IMG/VR virus record: IMGVR_UViG_3300020156_000442
Location: 1-34,446 of that record
DNA: 34,446 nucleotides
DNA from: a virus
Direction: 5' to 3' (one strand)
Every line of letters starts with the position of its first letter. Position 1 is the stretch's first letter. The position numbers and the translations under genes were made by a program. Below the pieces are notes generated by a model that ran no database searches, was not told the origin of the DNA, and saw only the letters and a list, made by a program, of their open reading frames with translations. Shown here in pieces: positions 5,272 through 34,446 of this stretch.

Positions 5272-5895
5272 TCAGGCCGACTTGAGCAGACAGGTTCCGC
5301 AGGCCCTCGATATGTTCAATTTCCCCACCTCAGCAGGACTGTTTGCAGCGTCCACCAGCTCTTGCACCTGAGCGCTCGCCCCATACCGACGCACCACACC
5401 GACGAACTCTTCAACGTCGTGTCCACGCATCTCAAGCTTGGGCAATCCTTCCTGGGTGAACTTGGGTGCGCCGTACTTATCGGTCGCTTGAGCGATGTGG
5501 TACAGCTCATGTTCTACCAGTGCGCAGAAGTCAGCATCACTGCACTGAGCGCAGTAGTCGGCTGCCAGAGTGATGATGTAGGCCGGCACGGCGCCGAACC
5601 AATCCAGCATCTGTTGTTCCATTCGGGCCTTCTGCCAACCACCAGCGCGGAACGCTACCTGCTCGGCCTGGCCAACGACAGTGCGCCCTTTCTTCGTGAA
5701 GGCGGCAGACGCCCACATGACTCTCACATCCGCATCGATCAGATGTGCATGGTCTGGGTTGTGGATGCTGCCGGTGTCGGCGAGGATCTCGGCTTGGAGC
5801 CATTCCCACACTTCCGGAGCAGGTATCAAGCGAATACCGAAGCCGGACAGCTCAGAAAGGTCGAGGAGCGACTCCGGAGGCATAGGCCTGCTCAT
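5272..5895 (-). CDS. Putative phage metallopeptidase
   Basis: 207 aa with a zinc-protease motif HELYH at residues 129-133 (VEHELYHIAQ). Flanking conserved features, AYIITLAADYC and later LRxH-like LEMRGHDVEEF, match the 'putative phage metallopeptidase' family found beside terminase genes. The C-terminus has three Cys residues nearby (ACGTCLL). The substrate is unknown. The family's repeated placement before TerS suggests a role in head assembly or lysis, but that is inference. It is the last leftward gene before two opposite-strand genes (5969-6851), so it may have its own promoter around 5900-5965 or depend on read-through. Confidence 0.8.
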   Translation of the reverse strand: MSRPMPPESLLDLSELSGFGIRLIPAPEVWEWLQAEILADTGSIHNPDHAHLIDADVRVMWASAAFTKKGRTVVGQAEQVAFRAGGWQKARMEQQMLDWFGAVPAYIITLAADYCAQCSDADFCALVEHELYHIAQATDKYGAPKFTQEGLPKLEMRGHDVEEFVGVVRRYGASAQVQELVDAANSPAEVGKLNISRACGTCLLKSA

Positions 5896-5968: not shown

Positions 5969-6178
5969 ATGGCCATAGCTATCGATAAGCTCACTGAACT
6001 CGGCGGTCATCGCTACAGCTCGCTACCAGATGAGCAGAAGCGAGCCCTCGCAGTAGCGGCAGCACTTGAGGTGATCTGCTCCAAAGCCTCGGGCGGAGAC
6101 ACAACAAGCCTGAACGTCGAATTCGAAAACCTTTCGACGTATGCAGACCACCTTCAAGAAGCCTTGAAACTGAAGTGA
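5969..6178 (+). CDS. Small hypothetical protein, opposite strand to the late operon
   Basis: 69 aa, MAIAIDKLTELGGHRYSSLP at the start, with AAGGAAG about 6 nt before the ATG. It is predicted all-helical and has one Cys; no family is recognised. With the next gene it forms a rightward pair inside the leftward late operon, the typical position of a moron expressed independently of lytic transcription. No membrane segment or nuclease motif is visible. A plausible ribosome site and neighbours ending and starting at compatible positions make it likely real. Confidence 0.55.
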   Translation: MAIAIDKLTELGGHRYSSLPDEQKRALAVAAALEVICSKASGGDTTSLNVEFENLSTYADHLQEALKLK

Positions 6179-6287: not shown

Positions 6288-6851
6288 ATGAATAACGTAG
6301 CCTCAACGCAGCAGCCCAATCAGCCTGAAAAAAAACCTCGAATACTCCTAAAAGCTATCGCTACCTTCGGCGCAGGTCTGATAGCCGCTGTCCCACTTAT
6401 TCATCTCGCCGGTTACGGAGCTGAAAAGTTAGTAGGCATCGGAAAGATTCAATCGACCGTCGAGGTGCAAGCAAAGCTGATCGCAGACCTGCAAGCTGAG
6501 AAGAAGACCCTTTCGGAAAAAGCTGATCAACTGCAGACGAAAGCGCATGACTTAGAATTGAATCTGAACAGATCCGACTCCAACCTAAATGCCGCGAACC
6601 AGCAACTGGCTCAGCTTACGAGCCTGCTTGGGGAGTACAAAAATCTCAACTCTCAATTGGGCAACCGCGTAAAAGCCACTGATCCATGTTTGGCGATACA
6701 GCGCGTGATTGCGGATATTGAAGAAAAACTGGCAGTCAGTCCGCCATGGTCACATGCGTTACAGGGTGAGCGCCGGGAAGAGGCCATGATTCAACTTGAA
6801 AAGCACCAACAATCGCTCCGATCTTGCCTGTCTCCCGGCACCAACCCTTAG
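6288..6851 (+). CDS. Membrane-anchored coiled-coil protein (moron candidate)
   Basis: 187 aa. After a basic N-terminus (QPEKKPRILLKAI) one hydrophobic helix spans about residues 25-47 (TFGAGLIAAVPLIHLAGYG). A long heptad-rich coiled coil follows (about 60-125: LIADLQAEKKTLSEKADQL), then a short C-terminal helical part with two Cys. It would be an inner-membrane protein with the coiled coil on one side. The gene is visibly more AT-rich than the flanking late genes and runs against them, suggesting separate acquisition and expression. The ribosome site is weak. Function unknown; a superinfection-exclusion or envelope role is a guess from topology. Confidence 0.65.
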   Translation: MNNVASTQQPNQPEKKPRILLKAIATFGAGLIAAVPLIHLAGYGAEKLVGIGKIQSTVEVQAKLIADLQAEKKTLSEKADQLQTKAHDLELNLNRSDSNLNAANQQLAQLTSLLGEYKNLNSQLGNRVKATDPCLAIQRVIADIEEKLAVSPPWSHALQGERREEAMIQLEKHQQSLRSCLSPGTNP

Positions 6852-6979: not shown

Positions 6980-7210
6980 TCAGCTGAAAGGATCACTGGG
7001 CTTGGCGATCGAGCGAACGAACCACATGAAGCCCTGCTGGAGATTGGTCTTGGCCAAGGCCAGTAGGCGCGGGTCAACGCCTTCGATCTGACCGATCTGT
7101 TTGAACAGTTCGCCGGCGTCCGCTTCCAGCGCTTTGATCGAGTTCATGCCGTCGATTTCAGACTGGGTCAGGTCGCGGTAGCCGGTGATCTTCTTGTGCT
7201 GGTTATCCAT
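6980..7210 (-). CDS. acb2: Acb2/Tad1-family cyclic-nucleotide sponge (anti-CBASS / anti-Thoeris type)
   Basis: 76 aa, MDNQHKKITGYRDLTQSEID at the start, then MNSIKALEA and a C-terminal helix LQQGFMWFVRSIAKP. The pattern [I-x-G-Y-R-x-L-x-x-x-EI-x-x-MN-x-IK] followed by [LQ-x-GFM-x-x-VR] is the hallmark of the Acb2/Tad1 hairpin family. Family members form small oligomers that bind the cyclic signalling nucleotides of CBASS or Thoeris and so blind host immunity. Tyr11 and Lys26, which I recall as ligand-contacting residues in Acb2, are both present at the same numbers. A strong GAGGAGG site precedes ATG 7210. It sits between lysis and terminase genes in the late operon. Which nucleotides it binds cannot be read from sequence. 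Confidence 0.82.
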   Translation of the reverse strand: MDNQHKKITGYRDLTQSEIDGMNSIKALEADAGELFKQIGQIEGVDPRLLALAKTNLQQGFMWFVRSIAKPSDPFS

Positions 7211-7271
7211 GCTGCCCTCCTCGTCTCGTGTCGCGACACAATTTGCACTCTCGCGAAACGTGTCGCGACAC

Positions 7272-7478
7272 TCAGCCGGCAGCCGCAGCTGGGCGATGCT
7301 CGACGTGTGGGTATTGCACTCGGAAAGTCTTTGTGCAATCGCACTTGTTGCAGCGATGCGGGTACTGGGGTGGGCTGGACAACAGCGCGACGCCAGTCGG
7401 CCGCATGAACCCTTCCCCGCACGAATCGCACACGTAGTCGACGCGGTACCACTCAACGGCCGTCTGATGCTCTGCCAT
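7272..7478 (-). CDS. Small zinc-ribbon protein
   Basis: 68 aa with two CxxC knuckles: CDSCGEGF at about residues 17-24 and CNKCDC at about 43-48, the spacing of a zinc ribbon. No enzymatic domain is attached and the C-terminus ends in a run of Ala. AGGAG precedes the ATG at 7478. It lies between the spanin gene and the acb2-like gene in the same direction, so the two small proteins may be co-expressed. Nucleic-acid or protein binding is possible; the role is unknown. Confidence 0.7.
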   Translation of the reverse strand: MAEHQTAVEWYRVDYVCDSCGEGFMRPTGVALLSSPPQYPHRCNKCDCTKTFRVQYPHVEHRPAAAAG

Positions 7479-7487
7479 AAATTTCTC

Positions 7488-7988
7488 CTACTTTCTCTTC
7501 TGTGCGGCAGCGTATGCAGCCTCACACGCAAAGCCGGCTATTCGGCTTCGATCAAGCGCTTCTGCCAGTCTTCCCGCTTCCTCGTCAGCGCTTCTACGCA
7601 GGTCGGCGAGCAGAACGGTAAGGTCGGCTCTTGCCTTGCTTCCGCTGGCAACCTCGGAAGCAGAAGACCGTCGCTTGGCAATGAGGTCGGTGATTTGCTG
7701 CTGCAGGCTGCGAGCCCGGTTATCAGCAACAACAACGGCAGCCGATACATGCTCAGTCTTGGCTTTCGCATCGTCGGAGACTCGGTTGATGTCATTGGTG
7801 ATCTCGCGCTGAATGCGGAGCGTGTTGATGAGCGAGTCCACGCGGGCGGTGGCAGTGTCGCGCTCGGCGGTGATGGCTGCTCGATCGTCCTTTACGCTAT
7901 CCAGCCGAAGCGATAGGTAACCGACCGCTGCGAGCGCTGCCAGCACTACCCACACCCACGCTGGAACCAGCTTCAGCAAGGCGGTCAT
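7488..7988 (-). CDS. Rz-type i-spanin (DUF2514-like)
   Basis: 166 aa. The N-terminal signal anchor VPAWVWVVLAALAAVGYLSL (residues 8-27) is followed by a long periplasmic coiled coil (RAAITAERDTATARVDSL, later RRSADEEAGRLAEALD). This is the architecture of Rz inner-membrane spanins, which fuse inner and outer membranes at the end of lysis. A second reading frame inside it encodes a lipoprotein (7538-7771), the nested Rz/Rz1 arrangement, which strongly supports the call. Its ATG overlaps the stop of the upstream gene as ATGA. No endolysin gene lies directly before it, as is usual for such clusters. Confidence 0.82.
   Translation of the reverse strand: MTALLKLVPAWVWVVLAALAAVGYLSLRLDSVKDDRAAITAERDTATARVDSLINTLRIQREITNDINRVSDDAKAKTEHVSAAVVVADNRARSLQQQITDLIAKRRSSASEVASGSKARADLTVLLADLRRSADEEAGRLAEALDRSRIAGFACEAAYAAAQKRK
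7538..7771 (-). CDS. Rz1-type o-spanin lipoprotein nested within the i-spanin gene
   Basis: About 77 aa in the +1 frame, wholly inside the Rz gene. From Met at 7771 it begins MRKPRLSMYRLPLLLLITGL, ending in the lipobox LAAC-SS. The mature part is Pro/Ser-rich at first (SKSPTSLPSDG), as in Rz1. Other starts are ATG 7795 and ATG 7750, all compatible with a lipoprotein signal. As an outer-membrane lipoprotein it would pair with the i-spanin across the periplasm. It is longer than lambda Rz1 (60 aa) and ends with a helical, charged tail. The lipobox plus nesting makes chance unlikely. Confidence 0.75.
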   Translation of the reverse strand: MRKPRLSMYRLPLLLLITGLAACSSKSPTSLPSDGLLLPRLPAEARQEPTLPFCSPTCVEALTRKREDWQKRLIEAE

Positions 7989-8323
7989 GGGGTCTGCCGC
8001 TCTACTGCTTCGTTGACCTTCTCCGCTGCCTTGCTCGCGGTATCAGCGGCCTGGACGACTGAGTGCGAGGCCTCTTGCACCTTCACTGCTGCGTCCTGAG
8101 TCTTCTCGGCCAGGCTGTTCAGTCGAAAATCTCGCTTGCCCAGTGCCGCGTCATAGGCACGGCGAACTTCGGCGAGTTGCTTCGTGTGCTCACTGCTGGC
8201 AGACCACACGCCGGCTTGGTAGCCGAGGATCAGGCCGCCGGCGAGCAGCAGCGCGGCGATTACCCATACCTCCGCTCGACGCCACCAGCGGCGAGCAATG
8301 AATTCCATAGCGCATCTGTCCAT
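7985..8323 (-). CDS. One-TM coiled-coil membrane protein of the lysis cluster
   Basis: 112 aa. An Arg/Trp-rich N-terminus (EFIARRWWRRAEVW) leads into a hydrophobic helix (VIAALLLAGGLILGYQAGVW, about residues 20-39) and then a helical Ala/Glu/Lys-rich region. The topology resembles an i-spanin or an accessory lysis protein. ATG 8323 overlaps the upstream stop (ATGA) and has GGAGG about 9 nt upstream. It ends overlapping the true Rz-like gene. Two adjacent anchor-plus-coil proteins are unusual; one may act as a holin partner or regulator. No family recognised with certainty. Confidence 0.7.
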   Translation of the reverse strand: MDRCAMEFIARRWWRRAEVWVIAALLLAGGLILGYQAGVWSASSEHTKQLAEVRRAYDAALGKRDFRLNSLAEKTQDAAVKVQEASHSVVQAADTASKAAEKVNEAVERQTP

Positions 8324-8694
8324 CAGTTGATGCCTCCCAGCTTGGTACGCAGGCGGGCGATCTCTTCGCTCTGCGAGGTAACCGTGGCGGTGAGTTGTGC
8401 GACTTGGCTGGTGAGGGCTTCGATCTTCCCCTCCATCCGACCTACTGCTGCGGCGAGCTCGTTGCGCTCTTTCGCGAACTGGTCAGCGCGGGCTTCAGCT
8501 TCCTTTCGCGCGATACGCTCAGAGTCCAGGAGCTCATTCAGCCGGCGAAGCGTGAAGATGTCGGCGTTATCCATCGCCCTGTCAGCAGCATCCTTCGAGA
8601 GGAATTTACGCAGCCAAAGGAAGGCTGCCAGCAATACGGTTCCGGTACCGCCCAGCCAGGTAGCTGTGCCTGGGCCGAGGTCAGTAGGATCCAT
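8323..8694 (-). CDS. Holin-like small membrane protein (N-terminal TM, coiled coil)
   Basis: 123 aa. One hydrophobic segment at about residues 12-28 (TWLGGTGTVLLAAFLWLRKF) is followed by a basic stretch and a long coiled coil (about 55-118). It is the first gene of the leftward late operon, where holins usually sit, and precedes two further membrane proteins including the spanin pair. A single-TM holin or lysis accessory protein is the best inference; similar Pseudomonas prophage proteins are usually left hypothetical. GGAG stands 5 nt before ATG 8694. Confidence 0.6.
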   Translation of the reverse strand: MDPTDLGPGTATWLGGTGTVLLAAFLWLRKFLSKDAADRAMDNADIFTLRRLNELLDSERIARKEAEARADQFAKERNELAAAVGRMEGKIEALTSQVAQLTATVTSQSEEIARLRTKLGGIN

Positions 8695-9438: not shown

Positions 9439-9759
9439 GTGCGCTCGTCTTTCCGAGCTGTCGGCCAAAGACCATCCCAGCGTCGACGCCCCTTTGCATC
9501 GATCTCGCTGTTCCTGTCTCGCGCCACCTTGAAAGCATTGTGAGGTCAGGGTGCGCGGGCTGCCGGCATTGATTCCGTGCGTCGCACTATCCGGCTATCG
9601 ACGTCCAGGCCTTCCCGAGGGCTGTCCTGCTACAGGTAAATTCGAGGCAATAAAAAACCCAGCACAGTGGCCGGGCTTTATGAATCAATCCCTAACGCGC
9701 AAGATCGACAGGATGGGTAAATATTCTCTCACTTTCTCACTCATTGCAATGGCTTTTTG
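9439..9759. other. Gene-free interval between convergent units
   Basis: About 320 nt with no credible gene on either strand. It holds the leftward terminator at 9650-9677. The rest separates the end of the rightward pair from the end of the leftward replication operon; I see no repeat or RNA gene in it. Confidence 0.6.
9650..9677 (-). terminator. Terminator of the PR/replication operon
   Basis: The minus strand forms AGCCCGGC-cactgt-GCTGGGTT (8-bp stem with G-U pairs) followed by TTTTATTG. It lies about 80 nt after the stop of the last replication-operon gene (9760). Confidence 0.7.
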
Positions 9760-14365: not shown

Positions 14366-15169
14366 TCAGGCTTTCCCGACCAGTTTGGCCAATTCAGGGA
14401 AACGATCCACGTACCAATGCGGCTGTGTTTCGCGAGGGCTTTGAGGGCTGGTTAGGTTCTTGCCGTAGGCCAAGCCTTTCTCGGTAACCGACCAGAATTC
14501 GACCGTCTCCTGCTTGGAGTTTTTGCGCTGCATGGTCTTGAGGAAGCCATGCGCCGCCAATGCTCGGTTGAAGCCTGGCGCGGTGCTGCTAATGGCGTTG
14601 TCTTTGATCAGTGCGGTGACAGCTTTGGTTGGCATGGATGAGCCGCCCACAGTATCTGGCGCTGCGTCCACGGCATAGCCCGGCAAGAACTTGGCATCGA
14701 GCCCATTGTTGGCGGCGATCTGGTTCAGCATCATCACTTGGCTGGATGGCGCAGGTTTAAGCAGGCGCGTGAAGCATTCGAGGATGGCGAGCTCGCCGAC
14801 AACCTTGGTCCCGTTGAGAATGCCCTGCTCGCGGGCGCCCTGCTGCTTCTCCAGTTCATGCCACCGGCGAATCACGGCGAGGCGCATTTTTGCGCTGTAA
14901 CCAGTGAGCAGTGTGTCGGTGAGTTCGCGGTTGAGGTTGAAGCATGGAAGTGAGCGTCCGGTGCTGTCTTGGTACTGAGCCGAACAATCGGCCCAGTCAA
15001 TTTCCAGCTCCTTCAATATTGAGCGAACGTCCGAAAGGACATGCTTGTGCGCTTTGCCGGTGAGCTTGGCAATCTCGCGAGACGACATAGTGGTACGCGA
15101 CACATTTTCATAATTCGAAAAACGTGTCGTGGACTGTCCGGTATTGTCCAGTTGTAGTTGTGCGTGCAT
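14366..15169 (-). CDS. Rha-family phage regulatory / antirepressor-like protein
   Basis: 267 aa from ATG 15169 (MHAQLQLDN). The N-terminal domain is the pRha type: TTMSSREIAKLTGKAHKHVLSDV at residues ~27-49, then LPCFNLNRELTDTLLTGYS and KMRLAVIRRWHELE. The C-terminal part (SMPTKAVTALIKDNAISS ... FLKTMQRKNSKQETVEFW) resembles an antirepressor/KilA-C-type end. Such proteins modulate phage development. A GTG at 15181 is also possible, but GGAG is correctly spaced for 15169. The gene follows a strong terminator, so its expression likely needs antitermination or its own promoter. Confidence 0.8.
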   Translation of the reverse strand: MHAQLQLDNTGQSTTRFSNYENVSRTTMSSREIAKLTGKAHKHVLSDVRSILKELEIDWADCSAQYQDSTGRSLPCFNLNRELTDTLLTGYSAKMRLAVIRRWHELEKQQGAREQGILNGTKVVGELAILECFTRLLKPAPSSQVMMLNQIAANNGLDAKFLPGYAVDAAPDTVGGSSMPTKAVTALIKDNAISSTAPGFNRALAAHGFLKTMQRKNSKQETVEFWSVTEKGLAYGKNLTSPQSPRETQPHWYVDRFPELAKLVGKA

Positions 15170-31996: not shown

Positions 31997-32341
31997 ATGT
32001 CCGAAACAGAAGAAATCGTCGAAACGTATCCATTCGACAAGGTGCCCGAAGAGCGGATGGCCGCACTACTGGACACCACTAAGCGTGCGCTCGAAGGAAA
32101 GCGGGCTCGCGGAATCATCCCCGAAGGCGTCTGGAATAAGATTGACGGCCGGGTTTTTTATAGCATCAGGAGATATGAAGCATGGCAAGAAAGCCAGTGG
32201 GCCTGCCCCGAGGAGTTGAATTTGCTGGCCAGTCTGTCCGTATCCGGTTCACTTGGAACGGCGAGCGGCGGTGCGAAACCCTTGCCCATCCCCAGACGCC
32301 AAAAGGGATCAAGGCGGCCGCCGATCTACGCGATCAAGTAA
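31997..32341 (+). CDS. Excisionase-like protein overlapping integrase
   Basis: 114 aa from ATG 31997, GGAG upstream. The conserved part is KVPEERMAALLDTTKRALEG, then GVWNKIDGRVFYSIRRYEAW: a short winged-helix typical of small excisionases/AlpA-like directionality factors. After residue ~70 the text becomes Ser/Gly/Lys-rich and lies wholly within the integrase gene in another frame (160-nt overlap). It should bend att DNA to direct excision. Position directly before int supports this. Confidence 0.7.
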   Translation: MSETEEIVETYPFDKVPEERMAALLDTTKRALEGKRARGIIPEGVWNKIDGRVFYSIRRYEAWQESQWACPEELNLLASLSVSGSLGTASGGAKPLPIPRRQKGSRRPPIYAIK

Positions 32342-33375
32342 TCAGCCTGGCCAAGCATGGGGTTCTGGACGAGAAGCGATATGCCGAACTGTTCCCGAAC
32401 TCCAGCTACTCCGCTGTGGCCACTGGCCTTACGTTTGGCGAATACGCCCAGACTTGGATCGACGGTCTTGAGATCGTTCCAGGCACTCGCCGGAACTACA
32501 AGGGCACCATCAACAATTACTGGATGCCGGAACTGGCCACGGTGCCCATGACCACTATCACCCCGATGCTGTTGCGTCGGGTGATTGCCGAGACCACTTG
32601 GGAAAGCACCACCGTGAAGCGCACGGCGATATCGCGGGTGAATGCCTTGTTCAAGGCGGCAGTGCGGGATGAGGTAATCGAAAGGAATCCGGCGACGGCG
32701 ATCAAGCTCCCTGGCAAAGCCAAGAAAGTGATTGATCCCTTCAGCGTGGAAGAAGCGGACATGATCATCGAATGGATGTATGCCAACTTCACTTCGAGGG
32801 CGGCACAGATCTACGCTGCTTACTTCGAGTTCGCGTTTTACTGTGGCATGAGGACGGGAGAGCTGCGGGCTCTGCGCTGGGATGAGATCGACATGGACAA
32901 GCGCGTTGCGCACGTCTGCCGGATCGTTGTTGATGGGAAGGTCGAGGAGCGCACGAAGACCAAGCACGCCCGCACGGTGATGTTGAACAGCCGAGCCATG
33001 CATGCGCTGGAGCGCGCCAAGCGAATCGCGGATGCCCGATTGAACCAGGTTCGGCGCAAGCGGCAGTATTCGCCGTATGTCTTTCCGCCTTCCGGAAGCT
33101 CGGAATACATTCTTGGCGCGACGACGCCGGGTGGCCACTTCGCCAAGGCACTGGAAGCCTTGAAAATAAAGCCGCGCAGTCAGTACAACTGCCGTCACAC
33201 TTACGCCACAATGTGCCTCATGGCGGGCATGAACCCCGCGTTCATCGCAGGACAACTCGGGCACAGCGTCCAGGTGTTACTGTCGACATATGCTCGCTGG
33301 CTGAGCTCGACTACCGACTGGTCTGAGGTCGGTAAGCTTGAGAGCCAGATTGGTACGAAATTGGTACAGGCTTAA
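32182..33375 (+). CDS. int: Tyrosine integrase
   Basis: 397 aa. N-terminal arm-binding domain (residues ~8-55, GVEFAGQSVRIRFTWNGER), a SAM-like core-binding domain (~83-175, TFGEYAQTWIDGLEI), and a catalytic domain: Arg224 (CGMRTGELRALRWDEI), Lys259/261 (RTKTKHART), Arg338 (YNCRHTYATM), His361 (GQLGHS), nucleophile Tyr370. The usual box-II first His is Tyr335, a known variant. It integrates and, with Xis, excises the prophage. Its gene ends 132 nt before host pbpG, so attP-derived DNA lies just downstream. Confidence 0.93.
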   Translation: MARKPVGLPRGVEFAGQSVRIRFTWNGERRCETLAHPQTPKGIKAAADLRDQVISLAKHGVLDEKRYAELFPNSSYSAVATGLTFGEYAQTWIDGLEIVPGTRRNYKGTINNYWMPELATVPMTTITPMLLRRVIAETTWESTTVKRTAISRVNALFKAAVRDEVIERNPATAIKLPGKAKKVIDPFSVEEADMIIEWMYANFTSRAAQIYAAYFEFAFYCGMRTGELRALRWDEIDMDKRVAHVCRIVVDGKVEERTKTKHARTVMLNSRAMHALERAKRIADARLNQVRRKRQYSPYVFPPSGSSEYILGATTPGGHFAKALEALKIKPRSQYNCRHTYATMCLMAGMNPAFIAGQLGHSVQVLLSTYARWLSSTTDWSEVGKLESQIGTKLVQA

Positions 33376-33507
33376 ATTTATTTCACTTTTCGCCCTTTGT
33401 TTACGGGCGCCTCTAGCTTTCCTAGCACATACTCCTAGAATGCGACGCTTTGAAGAAATAACCCGTTACAAACTAACGGAATATCCAACCTTTATGAGTT
33501 CGCCCGC
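33376..33507. other. Presumed att junction between prophage and host gene pbpG
   Basis: The 132 nt between int and pbpG must contain the prophage end, since the gene to the right is chromosomal. Visible features are a 5-bp hairpin CGCCC/GGGCG (33391-33409) and two TCCTAG copies (33420-33425, 33433-33438). No tRNA is present, and the core sequence cannot be defined without the other att site. Confidence 0.5.
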
Positions 33508-34446
33508 GTGAAAATTCGTCTTTCGATCCTGAGCCTGTTTTTTGCATTTACAGGCACATTCATCACGCCAACGATCAACGCTGCGGAAACCACCGCTGCC
33601 CCACGCGATGCCTCGACCCTGAAGATCGCCTCCGGCAGCGCCCTGCTCATGGATATGCAGACCAACAAAGTCATCTACTCCAGCAACCCTGACGTGATCG
33701 TGCCGATTGCCTCCGTCAGCAAGTTGATGACCGGACTGGTGGTGGTTGAAGCGCGGCAGAACATGGACGAATGGATCAATGTCGACATCAGCAATACCCC
33801 GGAAATGAAGGGTGTGTTCTCGCGAGTCAAACTCAAGAGCGAACTGCCGCGCCGCGAAATGCTGCTGATTGCCTTGATGTCCTCGGAAAACCGCGCGGCT
33901 GCCAGCCTCGCCCACCACTATCCGGGTGGCTACGCTGCGTTCATTGCGGCAATGAACGCCAAGGCCAAGATGCTGGGCATGACCAGCACACACTTCGTTG
34001 AGCCAACGGGGCTGTCGGAACGCAACGTTTCCACCGCACGCGACTTGAGCAAATTGCTGGTCGCAGCGCACAAGCACCCGTTGCTGAGCCAGCTCAGTAC
34101 CACCAAGGAAAAAACCGTCGCCTTCCGCAAGCCCAATTACACCCTGGGTTTTCGCAACACCGACCATCTGGTCAACAAGGCTGACTGGGACATCATGATC
34201 ACCAAGACCGGCTTCACCAATCCTGCTGGTCATTGCCTGGTGCTGGTGACCCGAATGGCCAACCGCCCGGTGGCGCTGGTGATCCTCGATGCATTCGGCA
34301 AGTACACGCATTTTGCAGACGCGAGCCGCATTCGCAGCTGGGTGGAGACCGGTCGCAGCGCGGCGGTGCCGGCAGTCGCGCAGCAGTACAAGGCACAGAA
34401 GAATCTCAAGTCGCGCCAGAGCGGCGTGGTTGAAGCGTCCAAATAG
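33508..34446 (+). CDS. pbpG: D-alanyl-D-alanine endopeptidase (PBP7), host gene
   Basis: 312 aa. Signal peptide [20 protein letters not shown] up to about residue 26, then a peptidase S11 domain with the three classic motifs: SxxK at 69-72 (SVSK, nucleophile Ser69), SxN at 126-128 (SEN) and KTG at 233-235. It cuts D-Ala-mDAP cross-links in the periplasmic peptidoglycan. Length and motifs match PbpG/PBP7. It is oriented away from the prophage; insertion upstream may affect its promoter but leaves the coding region complete. Confidence 0.92.

Follow-up and report, generated by a model that had tools for sequence, protein, structure and literature searches.

The acb2 gene and its neighbors

The window, i.e., the whole stretch of DNA that was analyzed, is an entire IMG/VR record of 34,446 bases and represents a Pseudomonas prophage. 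Its minus strand carries the acb2 gene (Table 1), which is translated as MDNQHKKITGYRDLTQSEIDGMNSIKALEADAGELFKQIGQIEGVDPRLLALAKTNLQQGFMWFVRSIAKPSDPFS, and the strong ribosome-binding site reported for this gene in a preliminary description, made from the sequence alone, is indeed present. On the same strand, acb2 is preceded by the genes for a holin-like protein, a small phrog_6065 protein, an Rz-like spanin and a zinc-ribbon protein, and followed by a metallopeptidase gene and then the terminase genes; this position supports the earlier placement of acb2 in a late operon. Farther upstream are NinG, Rha, CII, an S24 repressor and the Rfam Proteo-phage-1 RNA. This RNA (9558-9635, minus strand; 59 bits, cut-off of 42) is flanked by the lysis genes and by a putative Q-like gene at 10431-9760, for which Pfam gave no match; a late promoter would be expected at this site. 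Two genes of the opposite strand lie between acb2 and the metallopeptidase gene and are possible lysogenic-conversion genes: 6288-6851 (+) encodes a 187-aa predicted membrane coiled-coil protein, with 95% identical copies in two other loci (L003 and L006), and 5969-6178 (+) encodes a 69-aa phrog_5901 protein. The end of the record (32182-34446) contains an integrase gene, followed by a gene that is open at the record end and is probably the host flank of the prophage; judged by eye, the latter presumably encodes a D-alanyl-D-alanine endopeptidase.

Table 1. Features of the acb2 region and copies of the dyad element in the window.
Feature	Position	Strand	Evidence
Large terminase	4826-3471	-	PF10045, PF17289 (cited jointly with DUF2280)
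DUF2280 putative small terminase	5241-4765	-	PF10045, PF17289 (cited jointly with large terminase)
PhageMetallopep protein; the acb2 slot is followed downstream by this gene as the first conserved one	5272..5895	-	PF18894, E 5e-43
acb2, Acb2-type cyclic oligonucleotide sponge with short hairpin tip, 76 aa	6980..7210	-	PF24729, PDB, AF2/Foldseek, alignment
Ribosome-binding site GAGGAGG, 5 nt 5' of the acb2 ATG	7216..7222	-	sequence
Dyad element of the acb2 leader	7228..7271		core GCGACAC-N20-GTGTCGC at 7233-7266; RNA fold z -3.5
Zinc-ribbon protein, 68 aa, CxxC...CxxC, upstream neighbor of acb2	7272..7478	-	neighborhood counts
Rz-like spanin (DUF2514), lysis cassette	7488..7988	-	PF10721, phrog_312
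Holin-like ("hol-like chemotaxis") protein, lysis cassette	8323..8694	-	phrog_2658, E 8e-47
Second dyad copy, within the 5' portion of the Rha-like coding sequence	15097..15130		one mismatch

Identity and conservation of the acb2 product

The acb2 product matches the Pfam family Acb2_Tad1_hairpin (PF24729) with 68.5 bits (E = 5.8e-19); the family cut-off is 27 bits, thus the Acb2 match is far from chance. In a PDB sequence search p26/Acb2 was found with E = 1e-13, and the only convincing matches were Acb2 of Pseudomonas phage PaP2 (8h2j and its relatives), the best solved relative, and Vs.4 of T4 (7uq2). The Pfam match and the conservation of residues confirm the earlier description of a 76-aa protein with the Acb2/Tad1 hairpin pattern, with Tyr at position 11 and Lys at position 26. 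Among 57 representatives with less than 75% identity, Gln4, His5, Ile8, Tyr11, Arg12 and Asn23 are invariant and Lys26, a residue of the Acb2 pocket that was also named in the preliminary description, is kept in 56, although this N-terminal invariance is partly a product of the search patterns. In the C-terminal half, Arg48, Thr55, Gln58, Gly60, Met62, Arg66, Ala69 and Pro71 are kept in most representatives. The PDB sequence match aligns Tyr11 and Thr55 with Tyr8 and Thr68 of T4, assuming a one-residue offset in the PDB chain; the pocket residues Tyr11, Lys26 and Thr55 are all present. The Y8A change is reported to make T4 Acb2 binding-deficient and the T68M change to lower its affinity (PMC12657230).

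The length of the hairpin tip varies among the representatives, resulting in proteins of 73 to 117 aa; 32 of the 57 have at most 78 aa, i.e., the short-tip form is the commoner kind. The Acb2 pocket is located in the conserved N- and C-terminal parts of the protein (PMC10419184); therefore, a tip that is 17 residues shorter than that of PaP2 Acb2 appears compatible with the predicted binding.

The AF2 monomer model (pLDDT 85.5) is a two-helix hairpin with long antiparallel helices at residues 16-40 and 47-66, so that both long Acb2 helices are present; the stretch corresponding to the short N-terminal helix of Acb2 is in the low-confidence part of the model. The nine top Foldseek matches in the PDB are all Acb2 or Vs.4 chains (TMq 0.65-0.70, the best being 8h2j with 0.70), and the next match is an unrelated hairpin with E = 1.8. 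For the monomer, an Acb2-like fold, proposed earlier as a check of the assignment, is thus supported by the model and by the structure search.

Comparison with known proteins places the gene itself in an already known Acb2 kind. It shares with Acb2 of PaP2/PaMx33 (p26; PDB 8h2j, 8h2x, 8ixz) the N-terminal motif MDNQHKKI.GYRDL.Q.EID.MN..K, the C-terminal motif KT..Q.G.M...R.IA.P, the helical hairpin, Tyr11 and Lys26. However, PaP2 Acb2 is 47% identical and has 93 aa versus 76 aa here, and its gene is located between the MazG-like/DNA polymerase region and the structural genes, whereas acb2 of the window is in a late lysis-terminase slot. The relatives in PaP2, PaMx35 and PaMx41 are 40-47% identical. 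T4 Vs.4 (Acb2; 7uq2) has the same fold (TMq 0.66) and aligned Tyr and Thr binding residues; however, the identity is about 25% and the tip is longer than in the protein studied here.

We found at least 327 close relatives of the acb2 product in IMG/VR; the 80 that were retained are nearly all 76 aa long. GTDB genomes contain 43 acb2 loci, the close ones being nearly all from Pseudomonas, and the Acb2 family is above the cut-off in 19 of 200 Pseudomonas species genomes. In 29 genome loci, acb2 has a median amino-acid identity of 0.95 and a dN/dS ratio of 0.03, a value from the full genome set that supersedes an earlier estimate of 0.02, for which similar loci had been selected. Where present in the same loci, the genes for the metallopeptidase, the small terminase and the holin-like protein have dN/dS of 0.14-0.15. 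The acb2 gene in Pseudomonas genomes is under strong purifying selection. The terminases near acb2 belong to quite different families (27-100% identical), making acb2 a constant gene in mosaic surroundings.

A dyad element in the acb2 leader

The leader of acb2 contains a dyad element, which directly follows the zinc-ribbon stop codon and precedes the acb2 ribosome site. Its core is embedded in two perfect 12-bp palindromes GTGTCGCGACAC (7228-7239 and 7260-7271), and the consensus of the element, 34-35 bp in length, is GCGMCACRWW-N14-15-WWYGTGKCGC. In acb2 relatives, the leader inverted repeat mostly lies 54-61 nt upstream of the start codon. Of 125 unique acb2 leaders, 81 contain a perfect 8-bp repeat whose arms are 14-27 nt apart, compared to 1% of random 75-mers from the same loci. 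There are two dominant leader forms, CGCGACAC...GTGTCGCG and CGCGCCAC...GTGGCGCG. The element is not restricted to leaders, and its position in the Rha gene is common to many relatives. The dyad pattern was detected in 36 of 40 prophage records, with 1-5 copies each, versus one record for the reversed-pattern control; a longer form was detected in 83 of 200 Pseudomonas genomes, versus none of the 200 for the reversed pattern. A pattern scan of phages 5400 and U2 did not find the element. Rfam contains no known RNA family matching the acb2 leader up to E = 1, the palindrome GTGTCGCGACAC was not found in the full-text literature searched, and none of the papers listed in searches for Pseudomonas prophage stoperators, or for Pseudomonas prophage inverted repeats with Rha, has a title or abstract that deals with the dyad element. 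Judging from these searches, the dispersed dyad and its cargo slot appear to be the new, and surprising, part of the locus.

When the M position was left free, the two halves had the same base in 216 of 219 unique elements (137 C and 79 A). Furthermore, M is uniform in 49 of the 53 loci that have two or more elements, whereas 2000 shuffles gave 25 uniform loci on average and at most 38; a part of this uniformity may reflect common descent and the fact that some loci overlap. The purine at position 8 behaves differently from M: the halves are identical with a frequency of 0.39, versus 0.55 expected, and position 9 is near independent. One genome (G041) carries both A- and C-type elements; hence, the host does not determine the type.

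The left-right matching at M and its near uniformity within a locus fit a phage-specific DNA-binding protein, and the dyad is probably the binding site of such a putative phage protein. We tentatively suggest, as a possibility that falls short of even odds, that Pseudomonas prophages have a regulatory dyad recognized by a phage-specific DNA-binding protein with two or more specificities, and that the slot behind it would be a counter-defence or accessory locus, the occupants of which (e.g., the 63-aa phrog_15190 and 71-aa phrog_3540 proteins) would be candidate new inhibitors. Dispersed phage operators include the stoperators of mycobacteriophages and the repeats of SPbeta. In these systems, likewise, copies of one site recur at gene boundaries across a phage genome; in contrast, the dyad described here is 34-35 bp long, unrelated in sequence and has only 1-5 copies. 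Among the gene families of nine A-type (window included) and nine C-type phages, we found no regulator family that tracks the A/C type. Nor did the comparison of CI, CII, Rha, the Q-like protein, NinG and the integrase of the window reveal a regulator whose identity follows the type. If the element is a regulatory site, further counter-defence genes could be found by position alone, and there would be a handle on the regulator.

A rather doubtful alternative is that the element of the acb2 leader acts at the RNA level, by forming a hairpin (in translational control, processing or attenuation), and not as a DNA site. The leader can fold at -32.7 kcal/mol, and the A-U/C-G exchange at the M pair, seen in 16 of 49 leaders, is compensatory; however, a symmetric DNA dyad would give equal compensation. 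In addition, a continuous stem would not favor halves that differ above chance at position 8 and are near independent at position 9, and the element also occurs at the ends of genes and within the Rha coding sequence. A protein-bound dyad, as far as can be judged from the sequence patterns, fits better than a continuous RNA stem.

It is unlikely that the element is mainly a short homology patch for exchange of accessory genes, i.e., a boundary sequence with no regulatory role. This explanation is consistent with the occurrence of the same ~40 bp in one slot between differing upstream and differing downstream genes, whereas it does not need dyad symmetry, the left-right matching at M or the within-locus uniformity of M described above.

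The slot and the predicted role of Acb2

A scan of IMG/VR for the element, independent of acb2, yielded 55 copies with the form of the acb2 leader. A callable gene follows 47 of them, and 5 of these 47 genes are acb2, the others being varied; thus, acb2 is one of many slot occupants. The other genes encode the 63-aa and 71-aa proteins mentioned above, the metallopeptidase, a portal-like protein, a 144-aa family, gp49_66 and further small proteins, and genome regions selected for having no known acb2 provided further occupants, including a 101-aa zinc-ribbon protein. We counted 28 clusters; because some of these probably result from incorrect start calls, about 20 families is a fair estimate. 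Within the regulatory-dyad reading, the alternation of acb2 with about 20 families suggests a counter-defence or accessory locus. The sequences downstream of acb2-type elements in loci L302-L420 and L473-L492 contain these about 20 other families, which are candidate accessory or counter-defence genes.

The co-oriented zinc-ribbon gene next to acb2 is real, as described earlier; the protein has no Pfam family above the cut-off and matches only a PHROG without assigned function. The suggestion that it is a partner or a second inhibitor was not substantiated: a zinc-ribbon relative is beside acb2 in none of the 80 IMG/VR loci and in one of the 43 genome loci, and these counts led us to reject it as a conserved partner. 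A two-gene counter-defence unit is therefore very improbable, even though in the window the two genes are neighbors with the same orientation and one locus (L273) has a 58% identical zinc-ribbon gene before acb2; in L299 and L300, close zinc-ribbon relatives located before the same dyad element precede other genes, with no acb2 within the sequence stretch examined.

We consider it highly likely (probability of about 0.9) that the gene is acb2, that its product functions as an Acb2 hexamer binding cyclic nucleotides against CBASS, and that the gene is carried as cargo in an exchangeable slot, which lies between the lysis and terminase genes and is entered via the dispersed dyad. The family, the conserved pocket residues, the helical-hairpin fold, the late-region position and the strong purifying selection have direct support here. 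Acb2 is a hexamer with three dinucleotide and two trinucleotide sites. The product of the window gene most likely forms such a hexamer, which would bind the cyclic di- and trinucleotide products of host CD-NTases during late expression of the induced or infecting phage; CBASS effectors would stay inactive and the burst could finish. The predicted role as a cyclic-nucleotide sponge against CBASS follows from the Acb2 identity and is well supported by the sequence, the modeled fold and the residues.

The preliminary description had proposed suppression of CBASS and/or Thoeris, and only the CBASS part is retained. It is hardly credible that the protein is a Tad1-like sponge, which would bind gcADPR as well and inhibit Thoeris: Pfam does put the Acb2 and Tad1 (Thoeris anti-defence 1; PDB 8SMD) hairpins in one family, but Tad1 has an extra N-terminal beta domain, the loops of which form the gcADPR pocket (PMC12043709), whereas the 76-aa protein begins at the Acb2 N-terminus, a start shared by its relatives, with the hairpin helix from residue 16. 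With this domain missing, the Tad1 identity was rejected and the Thoeris reading is unsupported; furthermore, neither the PDB sequence search (E up to 10) nor the list of Foldseek matches contains a Tad1 chain.

A SMODS CD-NTase is encoded in 5 of 27 genomes of acb2 lysogens, compared to 18 of 200 Pseudomonas genomes representing the genus; the enzyme is commoner in lysogens, although the difference is not significant (Fisher p = 0.16).

The closest homologues among isolated phages are the 76-aa proteins of Pseudomonas phages 5400, vB_PaeS-D14B and vB_Pae_U2, which are 92% identical and, in 5400 and U2, are likewise encoded in the lysis cassette upstream of the terminase. These results show a widespread Acb2 of environmental Pseudomonas prophages that is short, highly constrained and mostly unannotated, and that moves as cargo. 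In the three isolated phages, the homologue is annotated as hypothetical or is overwritten by a reverse-strand call; for example, in vB_Pae_U2 (PP003914.1; L084 3980-4675) it is masked by a reverse-strand call named "Rz-like spanin". Other acb2 homologues are named "NAD/FAD-utilizing enzyme", which is apparently a wrong name.
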